A stretch of 46,505 bases of DNA from Lamprocystis purpurea DSM 4197 (lineage in GTDB: Bacteria > Pseudomonadota > Gammaproteobacteria > Chromatiales > Chromatiaceae): assembly GCF_000379525.1 (NCBI RefSeq), contig NZ_KB902363.1, forward strand, positions 191,954 to 238,458. The letters are read 5' to 3'. The notes under the pieces were generated by a model that saw only the letters and a program-made list of their open reading frames with translations, searched no databases and was not told the origin of the DNA. The position numbers and the translations under genes were made by a program. The number at the start of each line of letters is the position of its first letter. Position 1 is the stretch's first letter. Positions 15,403 to 27,103 of the stretch are shown here, one piece after another.

Positions 15403-15819
15403 TCAGGCGGGTGGCTTGTTGCTGTTCCAGATGTCACGGAAGACCAGCCACTCGCCGTTGGTCTGCCGCTTGTAGATCAGGATCCCCTTGCAGTCCGAGT
15501 AAATTGGGTTCCCACCAGCGCGCGGAATATCGACCGCTGTATCGTGGCCCTGGTCGAAGCCGAAGTCACCGCACACCCAGTTCATCGTCACGACCTTGGT
15601 CCACTGGGTCTTGAACGTCGTGAAGTAGCCGTCGACCCATTTTCGAATGTTGTCATGACCGACGACAATCGCGTCATCCGGCTGCAGGATCATGGCGTCT
15701 TTGTCGTACATGGCCATCACCTGGTCGGTGTCGTTTGAATTGATCGCCGCTTCATAGGCCTGGTGGGCCCGCAAGAGGTCGGGATCCAACTGGGGAGGTG
15801 TCGGTGTCTTCTCGGTCAT
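15403..15819 (-). CDS. NTF2-like (SnoaL/DUF4440-type) protein
   Basis: 138 residues with the cone-shaped NTF2-like pattern. LLRAHQAYEAAINSNDTDQV is followed by MYDKDAMILQPDDAIVVGHD, a signature of the SnoaL/DUF4440 group where a helix pair precedes the first strand. The C-terminus, GILIYKRQTNGEWLVFRDIW, is the usual final beta-hairpin. No signal peptide is seen. Family members bind small ligands or catalyse diverse reactions, so no specific function can be given. It lies downstream of the cyclase gene on the same strand, separated by a repeat-rich 146-nt gap. Confidence 0.8.
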   Translation of the reverse strand: MTEKTPTPPQLDPDLLRAHQAYEAAINSNDTDQVMAMYDKDAMILQPDDAIVVGHDNIRKWVDGYFTTFKTQWTKVVTMNWVCGDFGFDQGHDTAVDIPRAGGNPIYSDCKGILIYKRQTNGEWLVFRDIWNSNKPPA

Positions 15820-15965: not shown

Positions 15966-18900
15966 TTACGCCTGGGCCTTCCGCAGGGATGATGGACGCA
16001 GGCGTTCAAGCAGCGCACGGGCCTCCTCCAGGTCTTTCGTGACCGGGCTTGCGGCGAGCCGGAGCTGGATGGGTGCGAGCACGCCCCGCGCGGCCTCGTG
16101 TTTTCCCTGTTCCGCCAGAAGCCCTGCCAGCATCACCGCGGAGCGCAATTCCCAGGACTTGGTGCCCTGCCGACGCGCACAGTCGATGGCGGCGCGCAAG
16201 ATCTGCTCGGCCTCCAGGTCGCGGCCCAAGCGCATCATGAGCCAACCCTTGATGCGCAGGACTTCGGCCAGCCAGATCCGCTCCTGGTAGGCCGGGCGCT
16301 CAATTTGTTCGATGCACTCGTCAATGAGCCGCATGGCTTCGGCCAGGTCGCCCGCCTGGGCCAGCGCCTGCGCGAGGACCGATTTCAGATAGGGGATGCG
16401 CACCCCGCCACCGACGTTAGCCCAATCGGCGATGCCGCGCCGCAGCAGGGCTATGGCGTCTTGCGTAGGCCCCTGCTGGAGCTGGCCGATGCCGGTCGCC
16501 TGCGGAATAGAGACCTGGTTGAAGAAGGTCAGACCCTGTTCCTGCGCGAGGCGGTCAGCCAGGACGAGGCGCTCGAGCAAGCGTTCCGGCTCACGACCGT
16601 AGGCGAATAGGTAGGCGGTATAGGTCAAGGACCAAACGCGATTGAAGGCATGTCCGACAGCGCGCGCGTGCGCACAGCTTTCGTCGCTGACATCCATGGC
16701 CCGTTGATAGTCGCCCTGCATCCAGATCCATTGACACGAATACACCCCGACAAAGGTCTTCAGGTCATGACCTGCCAGTTGAATCCACTGCTCGGCGCGC
16801 TGTGGGTCATAGAGCGCCAGGACCCGGTCGGCGTGGGTCTGCGCCTCGCGCAACTGGCCGAGGAGGAAATGCGTCACCATGGCGGCGGCGGGGCCGAAGA
16901 TCTTCAGGTCCACATCGTCGGTTCCCGCTCCCTCGTCCAGTAAACGCTGTGCCAATGGCAGCGCATCGGCGATACGGCCCTGGGTAATGGTATTGGTCCA
17001 CATCCACCACAGACCGATGATGAGGCTTCGGGTGTTGCCTTGACTCGCGGCCAACTGCAGGATCCTCGCCGTGTTGGTGCCGATCGCTGCGCCGGCCCAT
17101 CCTCCCAAGCCGGCCCAGACCGCATTGAGTTGCTCACGAATCGTGAGTTCGAGTGCGTCGCGATCCCGCGTTTCGGGTTGTTGGCTCGTGAGGGTCAAGG
17201 CCTTCTGCAGGTGGGCGAGCGCCTCGTTCAGCGCCACGCGCTCGATGGCCAGGGCGCCGGCTTGGCGCCACAGTGGGATGGCGTTGTCGAGGTGACCCGC
17301 CTGGGTGTAGTGGTGCGCCGACAGCTCGGGACTATGGAGCGACTGGTCGGGATAGTTCGCCTCCAGGGTTTGCGCAATGCGGGCATGCAGGGTTTGGCGA
17401 CGGCTCTTGAGCAGGAGTTCATAGGCGGCATCCTGCACCAGCGCGTGTTTGAATGTATAGATCACATCAGACGGTGTCTCCCGGCGACTGATCAGCTCCG
17501 CCTCGACCAGCCGGTCGAGGGCATCGTCGAGTCGATCGGTCTCCCATGCCGCCACGCGGTAGAGCAGCGCGCGGGAGAACTCCCGGCCGATGCAGGCGCC
17601 GATTTGCGCGATCTCCTTGAACGGGGCTAGGCGGTCCAGGCGTGCCGCGAGCGAATCCCGCAGCGATGTCGGAATGGCCAGAGCGGGCAAAGGGGCCGCG
17701 AGCGTGTAGCGGTTCCCAGCCTCGCGTAACAGCCCCGATTCCAGCACCGACTTGGTCAGCTCTTCGACGAACAGCGGAATGCCATCGGTGTGGGAAATGA
17801 TCTCGTTCAGCACCTCGGGCGGAAGTTGTCGGCCCCCGGTCAGGACGCCCACGATCGCACTGATCGTGCTCGGTTGCAGTCGACCAAGCGCGAGGCTGGT
17901 CACATAGGGTAGACCCGCGAAGGGCAGGGAATAACCGGGGCGGTGGGTCGCCACCAACAGCACCGGCAACCGTGGCAGCCGAAGTACCAAGGCGTCGAGA
18001 AACGCCTGGCTGGTTGGGTCCATCCAATGCATGTCTTCGAGAAGGATCAGGACCGGCTGCCTGCTCGATAGTGCTTCGACTTGTCCGACCAGCGCCTCCA
18101 GCGTCTTCTCTTTCTGTCGCTGGGGCGAAACGTTGAGGGGGGGATAACGCTCAAGGGGCAGCGACAGCAGGTCGGCCATGAGCGGTGCGGCCTGGGCCAC
18201 GAGGTCCGCATCCCCCGCGAGCAGGGCTTCGAGTTTGTCGAGCTTTTGCTCGGAGCTGTCCTCACGGGCCAGGTTTGCCGCCAGCTCGAGCTGCGCGATG
18301 ATTGGGTGAAGCGCGGAATTGGTGAAATGGGGAGAGCACTGGTAGCGCAGTGCGGTATGCGCTTCCGCGAGACCCTGCCGCAGCGCGTGGCACAGACGGG
18401 ACTTCCCGATGCCCGCCTCACCGCTGATGAGGACCACCTGGCCGTTCCCTTCACGCGCACGTTCCCAGTGGCCGCGGAGCAGTGCCAGCTCGTCCTCGCG
18501 CCCGACCATGTCGGTCAGTTGCTTCCCGGCATGAGCGGCGTCGAAGCGCCCCGCCGTTTGGCAAACGGCGTCGACGCGCCAGACCGGGACCGGCTTGGCG
18601 AACCCTTTTAGGCTGTGCGTGCCAAGATCCGCCAGGGCAAAGAGATCGCCGATCAGGCATCGGGTTGCAGGGTCGATGACCACCTGGTCCGGCCCCGCCA
18701 GGCTCATCAAGCGGGCCGCAAGATTCGGCGCCTCCCCGACGGCCAGCTTCGACTCGCTGTTGTCGGCGCGGGACGCCTCTCCCACGACGACGGTGCCGGT
18801 GGTCAAGCCCACGCGGACCGAGAGCGGGGAGGCCGCCCGAATGGCGTTGACCGCCCGTACGATCTCGAGCCCCGAGCGCACCCCGCGCTCGGCCTGGTCC

Positions 18901-19343
18901 TCGTGAGCCCGCGGCCAGCCGAAGTAGATCAGTAGTCCGTCCCCCAGATATTGCGCCACGTGGCCGTCATAGCGTGCGACCACATCACCACAGGCCTTTC
19001 GATAGGTTTGGATGAGGTCCCGCAGTTCCTCGGGGTCGAGATGCGTGGAAAGGGCGGTGGATCCCACCAGATCGCAGAACATCACGGTCAACTGCCGCCG
19101 CTCGCCCACCGAGTCGATCGCTGGAGGCTGCTCGGCGTTCCCGCGCGGGAGGTCGTCTGAACGCTGCGGCGCCGCGATTGCCTTGAGTATCCGTTTGCGC
19201 GGACCGAATCCCAGGCCGAGTTCCTTGAGGTCCGACTCTGTCAGGATTTTCAAGGTCTTCAGGTCGACCTCGTGCTCGACCAAGAGCGTCTCGAACTCGC
19301 CAAGGTCATGCGCCCGCAGCCAGTCACCCAAGGCCTGCGTCAC
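15966..19343 (-). CDS. SAM-domain / class III nucleotide cyclase / AAA ATPase / TPR protein
   Basis: 1125 residues from the GTG at 19,343, which overlaps the flavoprotein stop (GTGA). Residues about 1-60 are a SAM-like helical domain (WLRAHDLGEFETLLVEHEVD). Residues about 82-260 are a class III cyclase domain: RRQLTVMFCDLVGSTALS with Asp91 and YLGDGLLIYFGWP with Asp135, the two metal-binding Asp. Residues from about 275 form an AAA/STAND ATPase with Walker A GEAGIGKS (near 308) and Walker B LILLEDMHWMD. The last ~450 residues are helical repeats of TPR type. The architecture is known in proteobacteria as a signalling or regulatory protein; the cyclic nucleotide made and the signal sensed are unknown. 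The frame is open up to 20,075, but that part is antisense-like filler over the flavoprotein and is rejected. Confidence 0.88.
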   Translation of the reverse strand: MTQALGDWLRAHDLGEFETLLVEHEVDLKTLKILTESDLKELGLGFGPRKRILKAIAAPQRSDDLPRGNAEQPPAIDSVGERRQLTVMFCDLVGSTALSTHLDPEELRDLIQTYRKACGDVVARYDGHVAQYLGDGLLIYFGWPRAHEDQAERGVRSGLEIVRAVNAIRAASPLSVRVGLTTGTVVVGEASRADNSESKLAVGEAPNLAARLMSLAGPDQVVIDPATRCLIGDLFALADLGTHSLKGFAKPVPVWRVDAVCQTAGRFDAAHAGKQLTDMVGREDELALLRGHWERAREGNGQVVLISGEAGIGKSRLCHALRQGLAEAHTALRYQCSPHFTNSALHPIIAQLELAANLAREDSSEQKLDKLEALLAGDADLVAQAAPLMADLLSLPLERYPPLNVSPQRQKEKTLEALVGQVEALSSRQPVLILLEDMHWMDPTSQAFLDALVLRLPRLPVLLVATHRPGYSLPFAGLPYVTSLALGRLQPSTISAIVGVLTGGRQLPPEVLNEIISHTDGIPLFVEELTKSVLESGLLREAGNRYTLAAPLPALAIPTSLRDSLAARLDRLAPFKEIAQIGACIGREFSRALLYRVAAWETDRLDDALDRLVEAELISRRETPSDVIYTFKHALVQDAAYELLLKSRRQTLHARIAQTLEANYPDQSLHSPELSAHHYTQAGHLDNAIPLWRQAGALAIERVALNEALAHLQKALTLTSQQPETRDRDALELTIREQLNAVWAGLGGWAGAAIGTNTARILQLAASQGNTRSLIIGLWWMWTNTITQGRIADALPLAQRLLDEGAGTDDVDLKIFGPAAAMVTHFLLGQLREAQTHADRVLALYDPQRAEQWIQLAGHDLKTFVGVYSCQWIWMQGDYQRAMDVSDESCAHARAVGHAFNRVWSLTYTAYLFAYGREPERLLERLVLADRLAQEQGLTFFNQVSIPQATGIGQLQQGPTQDAIALLRRGIADWANVGGGVRIPYLKSVLAQALAQAGDLAEAMRLIDECIEQIERPAYQERIWLAEVLRIKGWLMMRLGRDLEAEQILRAAIDCARRQGTKSWELRSAVMLAGLLAEQGKHEAARGVLAPIQLRLAASPVTKDLEEARALLERLRPSSLRKAQA

Positions 19344-20860
19344 GCCCGCCCCCGGTCCATCGCCATCGCTCCGGCCTGCTGCGGGACCAGCAGCCCTGTA
19401 GGGTCCGCTTCGCGGACCAACGACCGTGCCGATCGCTCGGTGGCCGGGTCTATGCCCAAGGCCGCTCCGGCCTGCTGCGGGATCAGCAGCCCCCGAGAGA
19501 TCAGCCAATGGGCAATGGCCGATCCCTGTTGCGGCGGAACCCGGGGCATCCAGGATCGCACCAACTCGGGCGGGGTCATTCCCCGGCGGACACACCGCAA
19601 CAGGGGTGCGAGTTCCACTTCGCCGACGAAGGCGACGGGCGAGGCTAGACAGGGGTGTCGCACCGCGGGTCGGGGCTCGATGAACCGCTCCAATACGCAC
19701 GGCAGATCCACGATTTCCAGTCCCGGCGCCAGGTCCAAGGGGGTGCTCGGCGCGATCTGGGGAGCGGCTTGCGGCTGGGTGACCGCTGACGAGGCCGGGG
19801 CTCCGGCGCGTTGCCGCCAGAACCGCGTCGCCGCGGTACCGGCCACCTGCGCATAGTGGCCGCGTGCCCACAGCCGGTGCCGACCCGAGGCTTCGGCCAG
19901 ATGTTCGCGATAGAACGTCTGCGCCATTCCGTGCGACCGCGGCCGTTCCAGCAGCGTATTCACCACCACTGCGCCCAGCAGTGCCGATTGAATCGCCCGC
20001 TGCACTCCGCTGGACGATAAGGGGTCCAGCGCCAGCCCCGCGTCGCCGACTTTGATCGAGTCCCGCGTCACGCAATCCGCGTCGAGGTAGGGGGTGGCGT
20101 CGGTGGCCTGAACGGAGGAGAGCAGGTCCGCCCCGCCCCCGCGGGGCAGCAGCGATGAAGTGGCGATCAACGCGTGAAACTTGTCGGCCAAGGTGCCGGG
20201 CATCGCCCGCAAATCGCGTGGGTCAATGAAGACGAGCGCATTGTAGACCCCGTCCGGCAGCGGCACACCCCAAAACCAGGCGGCTGCTCCGGCCTCGATC
20301 CGCGGCTGCTCCGGCAATCCGTTCCCTTTCCAATAGCCGTACAGGGCCAGGGTCGTCGGGCCGGTTCGGTGGCGGCGACGCCCGAGTACGCCCGCTCGGC
20401 CCGAGGCGTCCGCGAGCAGCCGCGTCTCCAGCGCGACCCGGCGACCTTCGGACCTGACCGCCAGCCGCCATCCCGCCTCGCTCCGCTCCCAACCTTCCAG
20501 CGTCGCGGGTTGCAGGATGCGGACCCCGCACGCGCGTGCTTGCTCCAGCAGCAGGCCGTCAAAATGTCCTCGATCGACCAGCAACCCGTGGCCGTCGAGG
20601 TCCCGCCATCCCTGCTCCGCCCCCCAGCGCTGTTGAACCCCGCGTACCCGTGGGTAGCGCGCCGCTTCGAGGGCCGGCCCAGCGCCGATCGACTGCAGGA
20701 GTGGCAGCACCCCCGGAGTCAAAGACTCTCCCAAGTGGCGGCGCGGAAATGTCGCCCGCTCCACCAGGCAAACGCCCAGTCCGAATTGGGCGAGCCGGGC
20801 GGCGAGAACGCTTCCCGCCGGCCCGCCACCGATAATGCAGATGTCCGTCGTCACCGACAT
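19340..20860 (-). CDS. LodB/QhpG-like FAD-dependent monooxygenase
   Basis: 506 residues from the ATG at 20,860. DICIIGGGPAGSVLAARLAQ is the Rossmann FAD-binding motif, and PRRHLGESLTPGVLPLL is the substrate-side signature of the tryptophan-halogenase/geranylgeranyl-reductase superfamily. VGDAGLALDPLSSSGVQRAI is the second FAD motif. Next to a LodA-type oxidase and a radical SAM gene, it is best read as the flavoprotein that hydroxylates the precursor Trp of the quinone cofactor, the role of LodB, GoxB and QhpG. The C-terminus has an odd duplication: LLIPQQAGAALG and LLVPQQAGAMAM, from a 30-nt direct repeat. The frame continues upstream to 20,980, but that part runs into a REP repeat, so I use the later ATG. 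It overlaps the cyclase start by 4 nt. Confidence 0.85.
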   Translation of the reverse strand: MSVTTDICIIGGGPAGSVLAARLAQFGLGVCLVERATFPRRHLGESLTPGVLPLLQSIGAGPALEAARYPRVRGVQQRWGAEQGWRDLDGHGLLVDRGHFDGLLLEQARACGVRILQPATLEGWERSEAGWRLAVRSEGRRVALETRLLADASGRAGVLGRRRHRTGPTTLALYGYWKGNGLPEQPRIEAGAAAWFWGVPLPDGVYNALVFIDPRDLRAMPGTLADKFHALIATSSLLPRGGGADLLSSVQATDATPYLDADCVTRDSIKVGDAGLALDPLSSSGVQRAIQSALLGAVVVNTLLERPRSHGMAQTFYREHLAEASGRHRLWARGHYAQVAGTAATRFWRQRAGAPASSAVTQPQAAPQIAPSTPLDLAPGLEIVDLPCVLERFIEPRPAVRHPCLASPVAFVGEVELAPLLRCVRRGMTPPELVRSWMPRVPPQQGSAIAHWLISRGLLIPQQAGAALGIDPATERSARSLVREADPTGLLVPQQAGAMAMDRGRA

Positions 20861-20910
20861 GCAGATCTGGCCCCAGAATAAGGTAAGGAACGGTTCATGA
20901 ATCAAGCTCC

Positions 20911-20992
20911 GTAGGAGCCCGCTTGCGGGCGACGTGATCTGCCGGAATCGCGTCATTGTGCCCCCACCCGTCGCCCGCAAGCGGGCTCCTAC
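20911..20992. repeat. REP-type inverted pair, 23-bp perfect arms
   Basis: Arms at 20,911-20,933 and 20,970-20,992 (starting GTAGGAGCCCGCTTGCGGGC and its complement) are perfect reverse complements. Each arm is itself palindromic. The spacer and left arm match bases 1-75 of the window in inverted orientation. The element lies between the radical SAM and flavoprotein genes, inside the presumed operon, where it may cause partial termination or mRNA processing. Confidence 0.75.
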
Positions 20993-21059
20993 GGGTTGGA
21001 TTTTTCGCGGAAATCACCTTACGTTAGACTGTGGAGCAACAAAAAGCCTTTATGTTGAC

Positions 21060-22460
21060 TCATACCCTAATCCTAGGGGCTAAGTCCGACAGGCTGCTAG
21101 TCACCGCCGACGGGTCTGAAGCCGAGCCTGGCTCGGCCCCGGCCGACACGCGAAGATAAGCCCCGAGGCAGTAATGCAGCCAACCGCGGATGAAGTCGCA
21201 GGCGGGTCGACCTCGTCGTATCACCTCGTGGTGGCAACCGCCGCCGCAGAGATAGCGTGCCCAACACAGGGTACAGGGTGCTTGCCGATGCACGTGACGT
21301 TCCTTCAGCCAGGCGGCTTGGCGCCCTTGATCGATCCCCGTCGCCAGGGAGCCCAGGGCGCCCGTCGGGTCGCCGACGAACCGATGGCAGGCCGCAAGTT
21401 CCCCGTCCGCGGAGACGCCCAGATAGCCGGCCCCGGCTCCGCACGGATAAGGCCGGTGGGTGCCTTTGCCGATCTCCGTCATGGCGTTGACCATGTTGGA
21501 AAAGAGATAGCGCGCTCCGGTCCGGATCCGGCGCTCGTATTCCCGCCCACAGTCGATCATGGCCCCCAGCATCAGCTCCAGGTCGTCGCGTTGCATTTCG
21601 CCTTGGCCGGACGGTGCGCTAAGCAGCGGCGCAAAGCCGACGCTGTGAAATCCCTCGGCGATGAGCTGCTCCAGTGTCATCCGCAACCCGAGGTTGGCTG
21701 GGGTCACTGTCACCCGGGCCGACACCTGCATGCTCCGCTGGGTCGCCAACAGCGGACGCACATGCTCCATGATGCGGTCGTAGCTGCCGCGGCCGCCCTT
21801 ATACGGACGTAGCCGATCGTGCACCTCCCGCGGACCGTCAACACTGATGGTCACGGCAAACCCATAATCCTCGAAGAAGGCTCCGTCAGCCGGCTGCAGC
21901 AAGGTCCCATTGGTCGTGATGGAAAAGGTGATGTCCACCCCCCGCTCGGCCGCCCGTTCGGCGGCGTAACGGGTGGCGGCCTGCACGACCGGGCGATTCG
22001 CCAATGGCTCACCGCCGAGAAAGGCGAGGTTGAGGCGTGAGCCCGGCAGTGCGGCGTCCACGAGCAAATCGACCGCCTGGAGAGCCGTCTTCCGGCTCAT
22101 GTTCTGCGCCGCCCCGCCGAACTCCCCTTGCTGCGCGTAGCAATAGGTGCAACCCAGGTTGCATTGCTGCGCGACCGCCAGCGACAACGCGTGCAGCGGT
22201 GGCCCGGACAGTGCGGCATCGTCGATCGCCGGTGCCTCGTCCAGTCCGGCCTCGGCCAGCAGAGCGCCGACGGTCCAGTCGGTTTGGGCCGTGTCGAGCC
22301 GGGAGAACAGAATCGGATCCGCATCGAAGAGCCGACTGCCATCCGCGACAAAGACATGACTGCCGAGACCGGTCTCGAACAAGTGCACCGCGGCACTGCG
22401 CGGTGCCGAACGCGCCATAGCGCCGCGCGCGGTCACGCGTAACGCGTCGGCCGGCGTCAT
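21060..22460 (-). CDS. QhpD-like radical SAM/SPASM peptide-modifying enzyme
   Basis: 466 residues. The radical SAM cluster motif is CNLGCTYCYA (Cys100, Cys104, Cys107; CX3CX2C). LAFLGGEPLANRP and FSITTNGTLLQP are further family motifs, and VTISVDGPREVHDRLRP is typical of anSME/QhpD-like enzymes. The SPASM region carries CGAGAGYLGVSADGELAAC, then CTLCWARYLCGGGCHHE and later Cys residues for two auxiliary [4Fe-4S] clusters. QhpD of this family forms thioether bonds in the CTQ-bearing subunit of quinohemoprotein amine dehydrogenase. Its start overlaps the stop of the LodA-like gene (ATGA), so that oxidase is the obvious substrate. The exact bond formed is unknown. Confidence 0.88.
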   Translation of the reverse strand: MTPADALRVTARGAMARSAPRSAAVHLFETGLGSHVFVADGSRLFDADPILFSRLDTAQTDWTVGALLAEAGLDEAPAIDDAALSGPPLHALSLAVAQQCNLGCTYCYAQQGEFGGAAQNMSRKTALQAVDLLVDAALPGSRLNLAFLGGEPLANRPVVQAATRYAAERAAERGVDITFSITTNGTLLQPADGAFFEDYGFAVTISVDGPREVHDRLRPYKGGRGSYDRIMEHVRPLLATQRSMQVSARVTVTPANLGLRMTLEQLIAEGFHSVGFAPLLSAPSGQGEMQRDDLELMLGAMIDCGREYERRIRTGARYLFSNMVNAMTEIGKGTHRPYPCGAGAGYLGVSADGELAACHRFVGDPTGALGSLATGIDQGRQAAWLKERHVHRQAPCTLCWARYLCGGGCHHEVIRRGRPACDFIRGWLHYCLGAYLRVSAGAEPGSASDPSAVTSSLSDLAPRIRV

Positions 22461-24823
22461 GTCGATGCGTTCCCGGTCGGCGGAGCATCCGCGGTTCGAT
22501 CCCGCTCGACCCCGCCGATCTGGAATCGCAGGTAGTGCTCCCAGGCCCGGAACAGGTCGTCATAGTTGAGCAAACGGGCGTCCCGGTAGTCGTCGGGCAC
22601 ATAGTCCCCGGTGCGCTCCTTCTGCATCCAATTGTCGCCTTCGCTCGCCCCCGCGCTGTTGGGCTTCACGTTCACAAAGTCGGGCCGGGCGGACGCCCAG
22701 TAATAGCAGGAGCACTCGCGGTAGTCATTCTGCCAGGGGGAGCAGAGGCCCTGGGTCAGTTCGCCCGGTTTGGCCAATGTACGGGAGATCATCGCGCTGC
22801 CGTCCTCGAAAAAGGGCCGGACCCGCAGCGACAGCTTGAGAGTGTTCTGCGCATCGGCGACATCAAAGAGCGCCTGGGTGGACCAGACCGGTGTCTTTGT
22901 GAAATAACAGTCGACCGATTGTCCAACCCGTTGATTCAGGATTTGGGCCAGCGCATTCGACCACTCCAAAGGCAGCACGCCATCGGGGTTGCCGGTGAAC
23001 CCGAGCACGGTCGTGCGGGTACGCGGGTTATAGGGGGAGGGTCCGATCATCTGGGTGTATAGATTGGTGTCATCGACCCGGAGGAGTCGGTGCCCGACCA
23101 GATCGGGCAACGCCGGTCCGCCTTCAATTGGCTCCATTTCCATCACCAGACTGTCATACTCCCGCAACACGATGCCCTCGAACAGACGGCGCCAGACCGC
23201 CCGAAAGTCCATTTCCAAACCCGGGGTGCAGTTGCCCACCGACATCTCGGGCCGGGAGGCGAACGGATTGCCGGCGGCGACATGATGGATCTGCGCGTGC
23301 CGATTGCGTGCGATGAGCCGCTGCTGCGGGTTCGTCTCGGGCACCTCGGGGCCTGGGTGCAGCGGCAGACCCGAGCAGCGCAGGATCGCGTTGATCTGCC
23401 GGTAGGTGAGCGCAAGGTATCCGCCATCCGCACCGCACATCATCGCCGGCATCTTGCGCCGTCCGTGATCCGTGAAATCACCCACCTCGGTCGGCAGTCG
23501 CAACGCATGGGCAAACCACGGGGAGGCCCCCCCTTGGAGTGCGGCATAGACCTGTTGGTGAAGCGCCATGATCATCAGTGAGTCCGCGGTGCGCTCGGGG
23601 ACGATGGGCCGCATCATGCGGTAGACATCAAACGCCTCCTCAGCGGGCATGGTGTCGAAGTCGAGCGGATCGCGTCCATTGACGGGATTGCCGTTCATCA
23701 CCGCGACATTCAGGAAGCGCACCGTATCGAAGGCGCGACGGACAATGTCGAGGGCGCGTTCGCGGGTCTCTTCCGCGTGCTCCTCCGTGGGGACCCAAGG
23801 GCCATGGATCACCTGATCCAGATCGTCCGCCAGGGTGCGGAGAAACACCGTATCCGGCAACACCGCCGGCGGTCCGGAGCAGATCCGGGCGGCCGCCTCG
23901 AGGACCACGGAACCCATGTGCAGCCTGACTTCGACGACACCGTCACAGGTGTCGTCGAGATAGCCCCGACTCACGGCGATGTTGTCATTCAACCAACAGG
24001 GGCCGGGAGGGACGATGGCGTAGAGCGACGGCGGCAAGGTCTGAAGGGCGGCGAATTGCTCTGAGGGGTCTCCGTCGTCCTTCCCGAATTGAAGCCAATC
24101 CTTGCCGGGATCATAAACCGCCTGCTCGGGCGGCGGGGTCCACACGGATTGCTGCCAGGACGCTCCATAGAGTTCCTGCAGCTCACTGGAATCCAATCGG
24201 GGTCCGTAGATCTTGCCCGGTGCAGGGGTAAAGCGCAGGCGAATCTCGGGGTGACACGCCGTTGGCTTGATGTACTGCACCTGGCCGAGAGCGATCGAGA
24301 CCTCGGCATCGACAAAGTTGCGGCAATGCCCGCGCAGGGGCTGGGCGCCATGGGTCGAGAACCAGGGGGTCTGCGCCGACACCGCGTCGTCCGGGTTCGC
24401 GGTACGCCGGGCCACCTTGCGGTTGGCAACCGTTACCTGCCAGGTCACATCGGCCGGCGTCAAACCCTCTTCGAGCAGGATTTCGAGCGTCAGCGGAACC
24501 CATTGATCACCCTCGACCTGGGTCCAGACCTCGAGAAAGGGCGCGACGGGCCGGATGTGCTCCGTCGTCTCGCCGTCCGTATCGGCCTCCGGGGTGCGCA
24601 CCTCTTTGAAGGAGACGACCTCCGGGATGAACGCATCCACGATCTCCCCCGTTTCGCCGTCCACCCTGAAGGTCACGGCACCCTTGATGCGGGGAATGTC
24701 GAGCGGATGTTCCGGGTCCGCCTCGATCTCGTAGGCTACCAATGGCTCAGCGCCAGAACCGAGTCGACCGATCGCGAGCGGCGGCAGAATGCGTAGCGCC
24801 CTGATTCTCATTGGGATGCTCAT
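22457..24823 (-). CDS. LodA/GoxA-like CTQ-dependent amino acid oxidase
   Basis: 788 residues from the ATG at 24,823, which overlaps the stop of the ferritin-like gene (ATGA). The N-terminus (RALRILPPLAIGRLGSG) and RGHCRNFVDAEVSIALGQVQ are typical of the LodA family. In known members a Cys and a Trp are oxidised and joined to give cysteine tryptophylquinone. Candidates here are Cys532 in GNCTPGLEMDFRAVW and Trp697 in GLCSPWQNDYREC; the pairing is inferred, not shown. Family members oxidise lysine or glycine with O2, releasing aldehyde, ammonia and H2O2; the substrate here is unknown. No signal peptide is seen. A frame extension to 24,874 exists but overlaps the upstream gene and is not needed. 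Confidence 0.87.
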   Translation of the reverse strand: MSIPMRIRALRILPPLAIGRLGSGAEPLVAYEIEADPEHPLDIPRIKGAVTFRVDGETGEIVDAFIPEVVSFKEVRTPEADTDGETTEHIRPVAPFLEVWTQVEGDQWVPLTLEILLEEGLTPADVTWQVTVANRKVARRTANPDDAVSAQTPWFSTHGAQPLRGHCRNFVDAEVSIALGQVQYIKPTACHPEIRLRFTPAPGKIYGPRLDSSELQELYGASWQQSVWTPPPEQAVYDPGKDWLQFGKDDGDPSEQFAALQTLPPSLYAIVPPGPCWLNDNIAVSRGYLDDTCDGVVEVRLHMGSVVLEAAARICSGPPAVLPDTVFLRTLADDLDQVIHGPWVPTEEHAEETRERALDIVRRAFDTVRFLNVAVMNGNPVNGRDPLDFDTMPAEEAFDVYRMMRPIVPERTADSLMIMALHQQVYAALQGGASPWFAHALRLPTEVGDFTDHGRRKMPAMMCGADGGYLALTYRQINAILRCSGLPLHPGPEVPETNPQQRLIARNRHAQIHHVAAGNPFASRPEMSVGNCTPGLEMDFRAVWRRLFEGIVLREYDSLVMEMEPIEGGPALPDLVGHRLLRVDDTNLYTQMIGPSPYNPRTRTTVLGFTGNPDGVLPLEWSNALAQILNQRVGQSVDCYFTKTPVWSTQALFDVADAQNTLKLSLRVRPFFEDGSAMISRTLAKPGELTQGLCSPWQNDYRECSCYYWASARPDFVNVKPNSAGASEGDNWMQKERTGDYVPDDYRDARLLNYDDLFRAWEHYLRFQIGGVERDRTADAPPTGNAST

Positions 24824-26310
24824 GTGCAGTGCCCTCCAGTTCGCGGCAATCCACCTTTGATGAGATCGATCCAAGCCACCGACCTTTGATCCAACTGTCG
24901 CAGCGCCCTGAGATAGTTGGCTTCATCGATGGTCAATGCCGGAGCGAGCGGGTCGTCCCGCGTCAGTAAGGTATCGCAGATCGCGAGCGACGACATCAGG
25001 ATGTCCTGATGCTGTTGCCAGCAGTCCGGCTCGTCCGTGGGCAACGCCAGCGTGTAGGGCAGCTCGAACGGTGGCGCAGCGCACGCGTCCTCGGCCGGAA
25101 CGCCATCCCGCAGCGGGCGGCGCACCAGGATTCCGGCCAGCGCCTTCAGGTTGTACATCTCGCCAAAGACCTTGTGCATCACTGCCCCCCGGACATTGGG
25201 CTCGCGCGGGTCGACGAGCCGCGCCAACCGGAAGCTGTGGGTCAGGTAGGCGAGCAGGGCGCGGTAGCGCAGGTTGAACAAGGTCGCCCAAAGCCAAGAC
25301 GTCTGTTGCTCGATGCGGGTGCTGCCCTCCGGCTGATCGTGCGTGCCCAGGGTGCTCGGGTTGACCGGCACCTTGTACACGAATGCCTGCTCGCTTGCGG
25401 CCTGACGAAACGCATCCAGCAGACTCAGGAACCGCACGAAGTGGGACGGCTCCTGATCGTTCGCCGCTCTGAGGTGGGCCGCCTCGCCCTGCTTCCCGAT
25501 CTGCCGCAGGGCCGCGATCGCCTCGGTCCGGGTTGCCAGCCGCAGGACGATCACATTGCTGCGCTCGGCAATGGGCACCGCGGGAGGCTCGGTCTCGCCC
25601 GGCCGCGCCGGCGGGGGCCGGTAGCCGCGACCCCACTCGTCCCAGGACGCCTGATGCGCATAGGTATCCGGGCGAAAGACCGTGTCGGGGATCTGTGACG
25701 GGTCCGCAAGGACCTTGATGATCCGATCATAGAGTTGGCCCACGGTGTGGGCGTGGCCAGTGACCGGCGCGTCACCCACGCTCTGCACGACCATCCGGAT
25801 GTCTTCCCTCAGCGTGACGCTCGGGTCCTGACTGTGCTCGCGGAACAATAATTGCCAGTCGTAAGGCGCCTCCGCGTACACGTACCACGCCAACAACTGC
25901 GCGCTGACGGGCGCGAGGCGAAAAGGAAAAGGCAGAAAGTCGGTGTCGGCCGGAAAATGGGAGCGGTCGAAGCAAATCGGCCCCCCGATCAAGCAGAGCA
26001 GGTTCTGCACCGTCAATAAGTGCCCCATCTCCTCTTTGGCGACCGTCAGGAGCCGATTGCGCCATTCCCCGACCTGGCGGCGCTGTTCGGGGGTTCCAGT
26101 TTGGTCGTTGAGCGAGTAAGCCGCATAGAGATACTGGACCATCAGGCTATGCTCCAGCTCCGCACCAATATGCAGCAACATGATGAGGTAGTCACGCCAC
26201 CCCATGCCCTGCGGTTTCGGTGGAAGCGGGCGTTGCAGCGTTACCCAGTCCAGCGGCACCTGCGCTGCGGGGCCGTGCGTCTCGTCCTCCGGCTGTGATT
26301 CCTCCGTCAT
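24820..26310 (-). CDS. Ferritin-like (VioB/PF12902-type) protein
   Basis: 496 residues from the ATG at 26,310 with AGGTG just upstream. Residues about 40-110 hold the ferritin-like four-helix iron site: LLHIGAELEHSLMVQYLYAA followed by VAKEEMGHLLTVQNLLCLIG (ligand pattern ExxH). This is the domain of VioB and other iminophenylpyruvate-dimer-synthase-like proteins. A later helical region (VMHKVFGEMYNLKALAGIL) also fits. It is the first gene of the operon and coupled to the CTQ oxidase. VioB acts on an imine product of an amino acid oxidase, so it may process the oxidase product, or it may help build the cofactor; both are inferences. The frame is open to 26,451 but lacks domain similarity there. 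Confidence 0.83.
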   Translation of the reverse strand: MTEESQPEDETHGPAAQVPLDWVTLQRPLPPKPQGMGWRDYLIMLLHIGAELEHSLMVQYLYAAYSLNDQTGTPEQRRQVGEWRNRLLTVAKEEMGHLLTVQNLLCLIGGPICFDRSHFPADTDFLPFPFRLAPVSAQLLAWYVYAEAPYDWQLLFREHSQDPSVTLREDIRMVVQSVGDAPVTGHAHTVGQLYDRIIKVLADPSQIPDTVFRPDTYAHQASWDEWGRGYRPPPARPGETEPPAVPIAERSNVIVLRLATRTEAIAALRQIGKQGEAAHLRAANDQEPSHFVRFLSLLDAFRQAASEQAFVYKVPVNPSTLGTHDQPEGSTRIEQQTSWLWATLFNLRYRALLAYLTHSFRLARLVDPREPNVRGAVMHKVFGEMYNLKALAGILVRRPLRDGVPAEDACAAPPFELPYTLALPTDEPDCWQQHQDILMSSLAICDTLLTRDDPLAPALTIDEANYLRALRQLDQRSVAWIDLIKGGLPRTGGHCT

Positions 26311-26578: not shown

Positions 26579-27103
26579 ATGTTGCAAGACATCGAGGGTC
26601 GCGCCACGGTCGATTACATGCTGCGGACCGCCCAGCAGAATCAGATGGCACTGACCAGCCTGGCCGACCAGAAGGCCAATATCGTACTCGGTCTGACCTT
26701 CCTCCTGACCACCTTGACGGCAACCCGATTCGCCCAGGGCGAGTTTCCGCCCGCGCTCCTGATGTTGCTGGTGTCCTCCATCGCGGCGGCTCTGTTCGCG
26801 CTGGCGGCCTTGATTCCCAGCTCCTCCGTCGTTCGCCGGCCCCCGGCCAAGGAGGGGGCTCCCGCCCCCAATCCACTGTTCTTCGGGGGCATCGCTGCCT
26901 TCGACTACCCGGACTACCTGGTCCGCATGACCGAGGTCATGCGCACAAACGCGAGCGTCTACGACGTGATCATCGCGGATCTTCATGCCGGCGCCTTGGC
27001 CCTGCGGCGCAAATATCTGTGGCTCCGGTACAGCTATGTCGCCCTGATGACCGGACTGGCGCTCAGCGGCCTGACGTGGCTGGCCCTCTATCTGACCGCC
27101 TGA
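26579..27103 (+). CDS. PycTM-like (DUF5706) membrane protein
   Basis: 174 residues. LTSLADQKANIVLGLTFLLT is the start of the first membrane helix and contains the family ADxKANI motif. A second helix follows (LLMLLVSSIAAALFALAALI), then NPLFFGGIAAFDYPDYLVRM with the conserved NxLFFG. The third helix is YSYVALMTGLALSGLTWLAL, preceded by LRRKYLWLRYSY. This is the architecture of the Pycsar effector PycTM (PF18967), which disrupts membranes after binding a cyclic pyrimidine nucleotide. No small PycC cyclase is adjacent. It is divergent from the CTQ operon, sharing a 268-bp intergenic region. Alternative role: a membrane protein of unrelated function. Confidence 0.75.
   Translation: MLQDIEGRATVDYMLRTAQQNQMALTSLADQKANIVLGLTFLLTTLTATRFAQGEFPPALLMLLVSSIAAALFALAALIPSSSVVRRPPAKEGAPAPNPLFFGGIAAFDYPDYLVRMTEVMRTNASVYDVIIADLHAGALALRRKYLWLRYSYVALMTGLALSGLTWLALYLTA

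Follow-up and report, generated by a model that had tools for sequence, protein, structure and literature searches.

A LodA-like oxidase locus in Lamprocystis purpurea, with QhpD-like and QhpG-type enzymes as its putative maturation system

The locus and its relatives

We analyzed a stretch of 46,505 nucleotides from Lamprocystis purpurea DSM 4197 (contig NZ_KB902363.1, positions 191,954 to 238,458; hereafter the window). It includes a four-gene locus that appears to encode an oxidase with the cofactor cysteine tryptophylquinone (CTQ). All four core genes lie on the minus strand, in the order ferritin-like protein, oxidase, radical S-adenosylmethionine (SAM) enzyme, and flavin adenine dinucleotide (FAD) protein. 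The ferritin-like protein (24820-26310, 496 amino acids) carries the PF12902 domain. The LodA-like oxidase (22457-24823, 788 amino acids) is a single chain with an N-half and a C-half, and its residues are numbered here from the Met at the ATG at 24823. The third gene encodes a radical SAM/SPASM enzyme (21060-22460, 466 amino acids) that is QhpD-like by its best model match, TIGR03906, and by its place in a tree. The fourth encodes a QhpG-type FAD monooxygenase (19340-20860, matching NF049967), which has 506 amino acids from the ATG that we chose (an upstream TTG would give 546). ATGA overlaps tie the ferritin-like gene to the oxidase gene and the oxidase gene to the radical SAM gene, which confirms the arrangement described in an earlier reading of this DNA that was made from the letters alone (the sequence-only reading). 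About 200 bp, with a 26-nucleotide inverted repeat inside, separate the radical SAM stop codon from the FAD gene.

We compared the window with 92 other loci: 12 plasmid loci (taken from 20 records found with tblastn) and 80 of the 195 relatives that were confirmed in a scan of species-representative genomes. Judging presence by our own score thresholds, all five modules (ferritin-like, N-half, C-half, radical SAM, and QhpG-type flavoprotein) are found in 76 of the 93 loci, so their co-occurrence, on which the sequence-only reading depended, is beyond chance. The radical SAM gene scores above 300 bits in 90 of 93 loci and the flavoprotein exceeds its threshold in 82. The two halves of the oxidase form one chain in 49 loci and do not in the other 44 (including L019 and the broken loci L014 and L043). 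Loci from Flavobacterium and Dyadobacter are examples of the single chain, and L050 of the split form. Many relatives are split at the linker, which lies at about residues 485-505 of the window oxidase (23308-23371, minus strand; residues 490-505 have low predicted local distance difference test, or pLDDT, scores). Of the 17 incomplete loci, several simply reach the end of their contig (L028, L031, L033, L038, L041, and L090 among them). Others are incomplete without such a cut: the MAG (metagenome-assembled genome) of L034 yielded no such radical SAM gene; in L106 the radical SAM gene lies several kilobases upstream and the flavoprotein was not seen; the ferritin-like gene of L016 is divergent; no ferritin-like gene was seen at the locus in L017, L045, or L068; no flavoprotein exceeded the threshold at the locus in L018, L021, or L022; and in L019 the radical SAM gene is cut short beside an IS3 element.

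By their record titles, the relatives belong to Verrucomicrobiota, Planctomycetota, Acidobacteriota, Gemmatimonadota, Myxococcota, Bacteroidota, Proteobacteria, and Actinomycetota, and the system also occurs in Nostoc, on plasmids. Among close relatives of the host, none of 92 other genomes, all seven congeners included, had a match, and in 398 genomes of the phylum the only matches were in the host's own genome and a weak one in G428. As none of the seven congeners gave a match and the nearest relative that we found is in an Opitutae MAG (72%), the system was likely transferred horizontally.

The oxidase, its maturation enzymes, and the predicted cofactor

The window oxidase is a remote relative of LodA and GoxA, but a single sequence is not enough to see this and profiles are needed. 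Searched alone, it reaches LodA_C with E = 6.4e-5 and 23.1 bits, just below the Pfam cut-off of 25, and has no NCBIfam match at E ≤ 0.001, the LodA/GoxA equivalog included. (The host genome has one LodA_C match.) Single-sequence searches of the PDB with the oxidase and with the ferritin-like protein gave no useful match for either. We then took 38 single-chain members, from the window and 37 of 44 candidate loci: at E ≤ 0.01, 36 of them match LodA_C and 16 match LodA_N. When our oxidase-family alignment (A2) was compared with 13 LodA-type proteins using hhalign, the N-half gave a probability of 97.7% (E = 1.3e-12) and the C-half 94.4% (E = 8.5e-8), where all hhalign E-values are for one-to-one comparisons. 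The oxidase profile also recovers GoxA and LodA from the PDB (E = 3.6e-5 to 0.0023). Finally, an AlphaFold2 model of the oxidase (mean pLDDT 80.8, predicted TM score 0.88) gave 28 Foldseek matches at E ≤ 0.001, and all 28 are LodA or GoxA, with low TM scores (TMq 0.22-0.30).

The two putative maturation enzymes resemble those of quinohemoprotein amine dehydrogenase (QHNDH). The radical SAM enzyme belongs to the Radical_SAM family, and its best NCBIfam match is TIGR03906, the QhpD model (324 bits, cut-off 453). This was also the best model for all ten others tested (of 90), with the PapB model second in each case, so by model scores the enzyme does not group with unrelated peptide maturases; the narrowest margin over PapB, in L020, is 1 bit. 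Two true QhpD proteins score 772 and 780 bits. In a tree with 30 family rows and 7 QhpD rows, each group falls on one side of a branch with support of 100/99; the tree is unrooted, with no PapB or SCIFF rows and with HxsB, which is too distant to root it, as the sole outgroup.

The flavoprotein is QhpG-type, not LodB-type. It passes the cut-off of the QhpG model (NF049967, 320.9 bits against 240), and ten others tested (of about 82) score 260-335, while a full-length true QhpG scores 537. Flavoproteins from LodB-type control loci (3 of 13 scored) reach 163-205 on this model and score higher on LodB or GoxB. In a tree of 32 family members, 14 LodB-type proteins (from 12 of the 13 controls, L137 being left out, plus neighbors in L057 and L062), and 2 QhpG proteins (one partial), the family lies with the QhpG proteins and apart from LodB (support 91/83), except that the L020 flavoprotein sits on a long branch outside these groups. 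Alignment with solved QhpG (7ctq), using residues named in PMC7876137, indicates by hand count that a Glu and one Trp near the FAD are retained and that one channel Arg is lost. Thus, the sequence-only reading was right to see a hybrid in which a LodA-type scaffold is combined with Qhp-type maturation enzymes, but its LodAB-type maturation is not supported.

In LodA, CTQ is formed from C516 and W581 (PMC4417212). The profile alignment of LodA, PGDLTKRMACPWQADFFNC, ends at C516, which lies opposite C704 of the window oxidase. By the printed numbering, W581 of LodA is the tryptophan before PPQSP (in WWP), and it lies opposite W709. D700 lies opposite LodA D512 and GoxA D678 (as printed), a position at which Asp is described as conserved in tryptophylquinone enzymes (PMC7876137). 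The sequence-only reading had proposed Cys532 and Trp697 as the cofactor residues, and it numbered both correctly (counting from the ATG at 24823), but we rejected them. Trp697 is the tryptophan of PWQ, and LodA W581 aligns with Trp709 instead. (We take W697 of GoxA to be that protein's CTQ tryptophan.) Cys532 is kept in 87 of 92 C-halves; it is replaced in L015, L017, L094, and L100 and falls in a gap in the broken L043. Also, it precedes PGLE in the way that the thioether-forming Cys7 of QhpC precedes PGWE.

QhpC carries C27-D33 and C41-D49 thioethers, a third thioether between C7 and E16, and CTQ formed from C37 and W43 (PMC8172795). In seven of seven Qhp loci, the pattern LC-P---D---C...C-W-----D retains its Cys, Asp, and Trp, with few changes elsewhere (these loci come from 7 of 13 matching genomes and represent a single taxonomic family with little diversity). 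The corresponding motif of the new family, LC-PW--D---C-C--W-----D, is at residues 694-715 of the window oxidase (LCSPWQNDYRECSCYYWASARPD, which starts from L693; 22679-22744, minus strand). It is intact in all 92 C-halves from the 93 loci (L019 has none), although the bait for the genome scan was two motif stretches, which biases conservation counts. The motif is also intact in 12 of 12 members of the bait-free set, which consists of the window plus 11 plasmid loci that have a C-half and were recovered with the whole protein as tblastn query. The two extra cysteines of the motif are present in all 7 QhpC controls and in none of 13 LodB-type controls (LodA-type loci from 11 genomes over the cut-off, plus G079 and G058). 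No QhpD-like gene was found within the roughly 12-kb regions of those 13 loci, and the only radical SAM gene near any of them is HxsB, in L130.

From the LodA alignment, the likeness to QhpC, and this conservation, we predict that C704 and W709 would form CTQ and that C694-D700 and C706-D715 would be thioethers, which we think quite likely. C532 and E537 (NC-PGLE; 23213-23230, minus strand) perhaps form a third, optional thioether, a prediction that we hold with less confidence than the core cross-links. E537 is retained in 91 of 92 C-halves, and PGLE with E537 corresponds to PGWE with E16 in QhpC; the broader PGxE motif is found in LodA-type proteins as well as in QhpC.

We propose, with a probability of about 0.78, that the locus encodes a CTQ amine or amino-acid oxidase that is built on a LodA/GoxA scaffold and whose cofactor domain would be matured as in QhpC. 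The proposal is based on homology, residue conservation, co-occurrence, and operon and fusion architecture, from which the chemistry is inferred.

One alternative is that CTQ forms as in LodA, by an autocatalytic first step and the flavoprotein, while the radical SAM enzyme has another target, for instance an unlinked peptide. Maturation of LodA and GoxA does require a flavoprotein alone (PMC7876137; PMC4417212), and L034 has the oxidase motif even though a radical SAM gene of this kind did not turn up in its MAG. This seems very unlikely to us given the presence of the radical SAM gene in 90 of 93 loci and of a QhpG-type flavoprotein, and given that, except for L034, both extra cysteines are confined to sets with a QhpD-like gene. 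In the 200-bp gap before the FAD gene, the sole same-strand open reading frame (ORF) of at least 20 amino acids has 40, none of them cysteine.

A second alternative is that the oxidase is not a CTQ enzyme: the conserved cysteines could bind a metal or a cluster, or the radical SAM enzyme could make another link (for example, S-C alpha or C-C). To our knowledge, no chemistry is known for this oxidase family, which counts in favor of this alternative, and the radical SAM proteins also score 242-283 bits on the PapB model and 215-245 on the SCIFF maturase model. On the other hand, PapB itself makes Cys-Asp links (PMC11002830), and C704 and W709 match the CTQ residues of LodA and GoxA in alignment, as D700 matches their conserved Asp, so we consider it improbable.

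Besides L034 and the biased bait, several observations weigh against the maturation that we propose. Compared directly, the profiles of the C-half and of QhpC match weakly (hhalign 5%, E = 0.008), though E is 1.2e-5 for QhpC against LodA. The spacings differ: C704-x-C706 corresponds to C37-xxx-C41 in QhpC, and C532 and E537 are 5 residues apart rather than the 9 between C7 and E16. Marinomonas LodA has a cysteine, C507, one residue past the position of C694, so the link between a cysteine at about this place and a radical SAM enzyme is not strict. The cofactor loop is of low confidence in the oxidase model, and scores on the QhpD model (257-345 bits) are all below its cut-off. Short same-strand ORFs also lie upstream of the ferritin-like gene. 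A further difference from QHNDH is that the seven proteins scanned around the locus include no heme, propeller, protease, or transporter subunit, although no search was aimed at a QhpE-like protease or a leader peptide.

In one LodA-type oxidase that has no radical SAM neighbor (L140, 5682-8090), just a few residues separate the cofactor Cys from the Trp (SCNVAWWP). In this it resembles the new family, yet it lacks the extra cysteines; it is a possible evolutionary intermediate.

The ferritin-like partner and neighboring genes

The ferritin-like protein matches PF12902 with E = 3.9e-27 and 96 bits (Pfam cut-off 22.3). In our alignment of 47 such proteins (A3, the window and 46 of 73 candidate loci), E53, E93, E94, H97, E147, E276, H290, and E384 are present in every row. 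These eight residues would suit a dimetal-carboxylate site, probably in a four-helix protein. With an AlphaFold2 model (pLDDT 85.6), Foldseek returned bacterioferritins and an Mn catalase at probability 1.00, with E-values that are not significant (0.12 at best), and the profile searched against the PDB reached only E = 0.018. In line with the partner role that the sequence-only reading gave it, this protein is conserved and co-occurs widely with the oxidase and the maturases. Four loci (L018, L020, L021, and L022) have a ferritin-like domain fused to the C-half, and L021 has a further fusion, to the N-half (Pfam confirms PF12902 in the fusions of L018, L020, and L022 and in the L021 N-half). 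Because of these fusions, we view the ferritin-like protein as a physical partner of the oxidase, and they suggest that it may have a role in product channeling or peroxide control. A PF12902 neighbor is also present in both of the LodB-type loci scanned for it (L131 and L133, out of 13), and PMC4417212 reports one for fungal lodA-like genes. Given its presence beside these oxidases, the partner probably has to do with oxidase chemistry rather than with radical SAM maturation.

A more specific possibility, which is compatible with our proposal, is that the partner couples the imine product into a secondary metabolite, as VioB does, instead of removing peroxide or transferring electrons. PF12902 is related to VioB: the VioB model TIGR04492 hits the ferritin-like protein with E = 1.5e-10 and 39.5 bits, far below its cut-off of 1250. 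VioB dimerizes the imine made by an amino-acid oxidase (PMC9705886), and the fusions to oxidase halves would fit such a handover. Yet catalase activity is reported for VioB too (PMC9705886), and a catalase domain is listed for 21 LodA-like proteins in Table 3 of PMC4417212, which makes peroxide handling an equally good fit; the structural matches, not significant as they are, are to bacterioferritin and Mn catalase. VioB-like coupling is thus a tentative idea, and we lean somewhat away from it.

Adjoining the Bradyrhizobium barranii system (L016, 3745-6498), a divergent gene encodes BNR repeats, a FlgD-like domain, and PF12902 in one protein.

We also looked for conserved families outside the core and, for the window, followed two clusters, the cyclase and SnoaL ones. 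Downstream in the window, a GTGA overlap ties the end of the FAD gene to a gene (15966-19343, minus strand) whose product has SAM_1, class III nucleotidyl cyclase, AAA, and TPR domains. This is an accessory gene of the window's clade, as homologs (36-60% identical) lie close to the system in 14 other loci, every one of them in the range L027-L047. The homolog is on the opposite strand in L040 and is cut by contig ends in L029, L032, and L038; in L035, its start and the flavoprotein stop share four bases, as they do in the window. Leaving the window aside, 75 loci extend 3 kb or more past the flavoprotein gene, and 11 of these carry the homolog. The next gene in the same direction (15403-15819, minus strand) encodes a small SnoaL-like protein by domain scan, with homologs near the system in seven other loci (the one in L042 is only 27% identical). 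Our guess is that both genes are regulatory. On the other side of the locus, a divergent gene (26579-27103) encodes a PycTM (Pycsar effector-like) domain (PF18967, E = 1e-17).

Two kinds of repeat are also present. In the region 19367-19492, a dispersed repeat of about 70 bp (19395-19464) lies in frame within the 3' end of the FAD gene, flanked by 30-nucleotide direct repeats (97%), and has at least 41 listed matches in its own genome, itself included. It looks like the insertion of a small mobile element with a duplicated flank. The 26-nucleotide inverted repeat upstream of the FAD gene (20909-20994) is perfect, and its core, GCAAGCGGGCTCCTAC, has a third copy at 50-65 (chance expectation, mean 0.00).

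Some relatives have other genes of note nearby. A LodA-like/LodB-type pair, recognized by weak profile matches, adjoins the new system in L057, L062, and L105, and an annotated LodA/GoxA oxidase lies about 5 kb from the system in L012. In Mesorhizobium (L017, 12346-16271), the system is followed by multicopper oxidase and tyrosinase genes; such neighbors are reported for the LodA group ID operons (PMC4417212). In Bradyrhizobium septentrionale (L011, 1301-3956), the genes upstream of the system include two annotated as a serine protease and as a C25 family cysteine peptidase.

A proposed mechanism and its relation to known systems

Under our proposal, the QhpD-like enzyme would make the thioethers Cys694-Asp700 and Cys706-Asp715, and Cys532-Glu537 where those residues are present. 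The QhpG-type flavoprotein would then hydroxylate Trp709 twice, and Trp709 would be joined to Cys704 and oxidized to CTQ. The quinone would deaminate a primary amine to an imine/aldehyde or a keto acid and, with oxygen, yield hydrogen peroxide. The ferritin-like protein would be a dimetal partner that is held on the oxidase and acts on the imine or the peroxide.

The system resembles QhpC in maturation and LodA in catalysis, but it does not pass the full membership test of either family. With LodA and GoxA it shares the N-half scaffold, the PWQxD---C and PGxE motifs, the positions of the CTQ Cys, Asp, and Trp, and, in at least 2 of 13 LodB-type loci and in fungi (PMC4417212), a ferritin-like gene nearby. 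It differs from them in having a QhpD-like radical SAM gene, a flavoprotein that is not LodB-type, two or three extra conserved cysteines, and an oxidase that is often two polypeptides and, in the window, is under the LodA_C cut-off without an NCBIfam LodA/GoxA match. With QHNDH it shares the LC-P---D---C..C..W-----D pattern and both types of maturation enzyme, but the cofactor would be in a large LodA-like chain, and the host genome has no match to PF08992 (the QhpC gamma subunit). Like VioB, the ferritin-like protein has a PF12902 domain and adjoins a predicted amine or amino-acid oxidase, but it has about 500 amino acids, while the VioB model has 1003 positions. PapB is also a SPASM radical SAM enzyme, related to the one here, and forms Cys-Asp thioethers (PMC11002830), but its substrate is a peptide, and its model scores below QhpD here.

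A broader idea, to which we would give a little less than an even chance, is that the cofactor domains of LodA/GoxA and QhpC share an origin. The new family would be a living link that keeps both the thioether bridges and QhpG-type dihydroxylation of the Trp, with LodA-type proteins having lost the bridges and QhpC having lost the scaffold, or the reverse. A complex of N-half, C-half, and ferritin-like protein would pass the imine to the dimetal site.

Among the matches listed in a search of the open-access literature, we saw no report in which LodA-like oxidases have a radical SAM partner, so this looks like a widespread bacterial enzyme system that we have not found described. It is common, as a single scan of species-representative genomes yielded 195 related stretches, and it offers testable residues and a natural split version that would be convenient for maturation in vitro. 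CTQ formation of the LodA/GoxA type and of the Qhp type have been described as divergent strategies (PMC7876137). If our proposal is true, this would be a third kind of CTQ system, one that joins the two known ones, and radical-SAM Cys-Asp/Glu cross-linking would reach beyond a small subunit into the core of a large oxidase, here of 788 amino acids.

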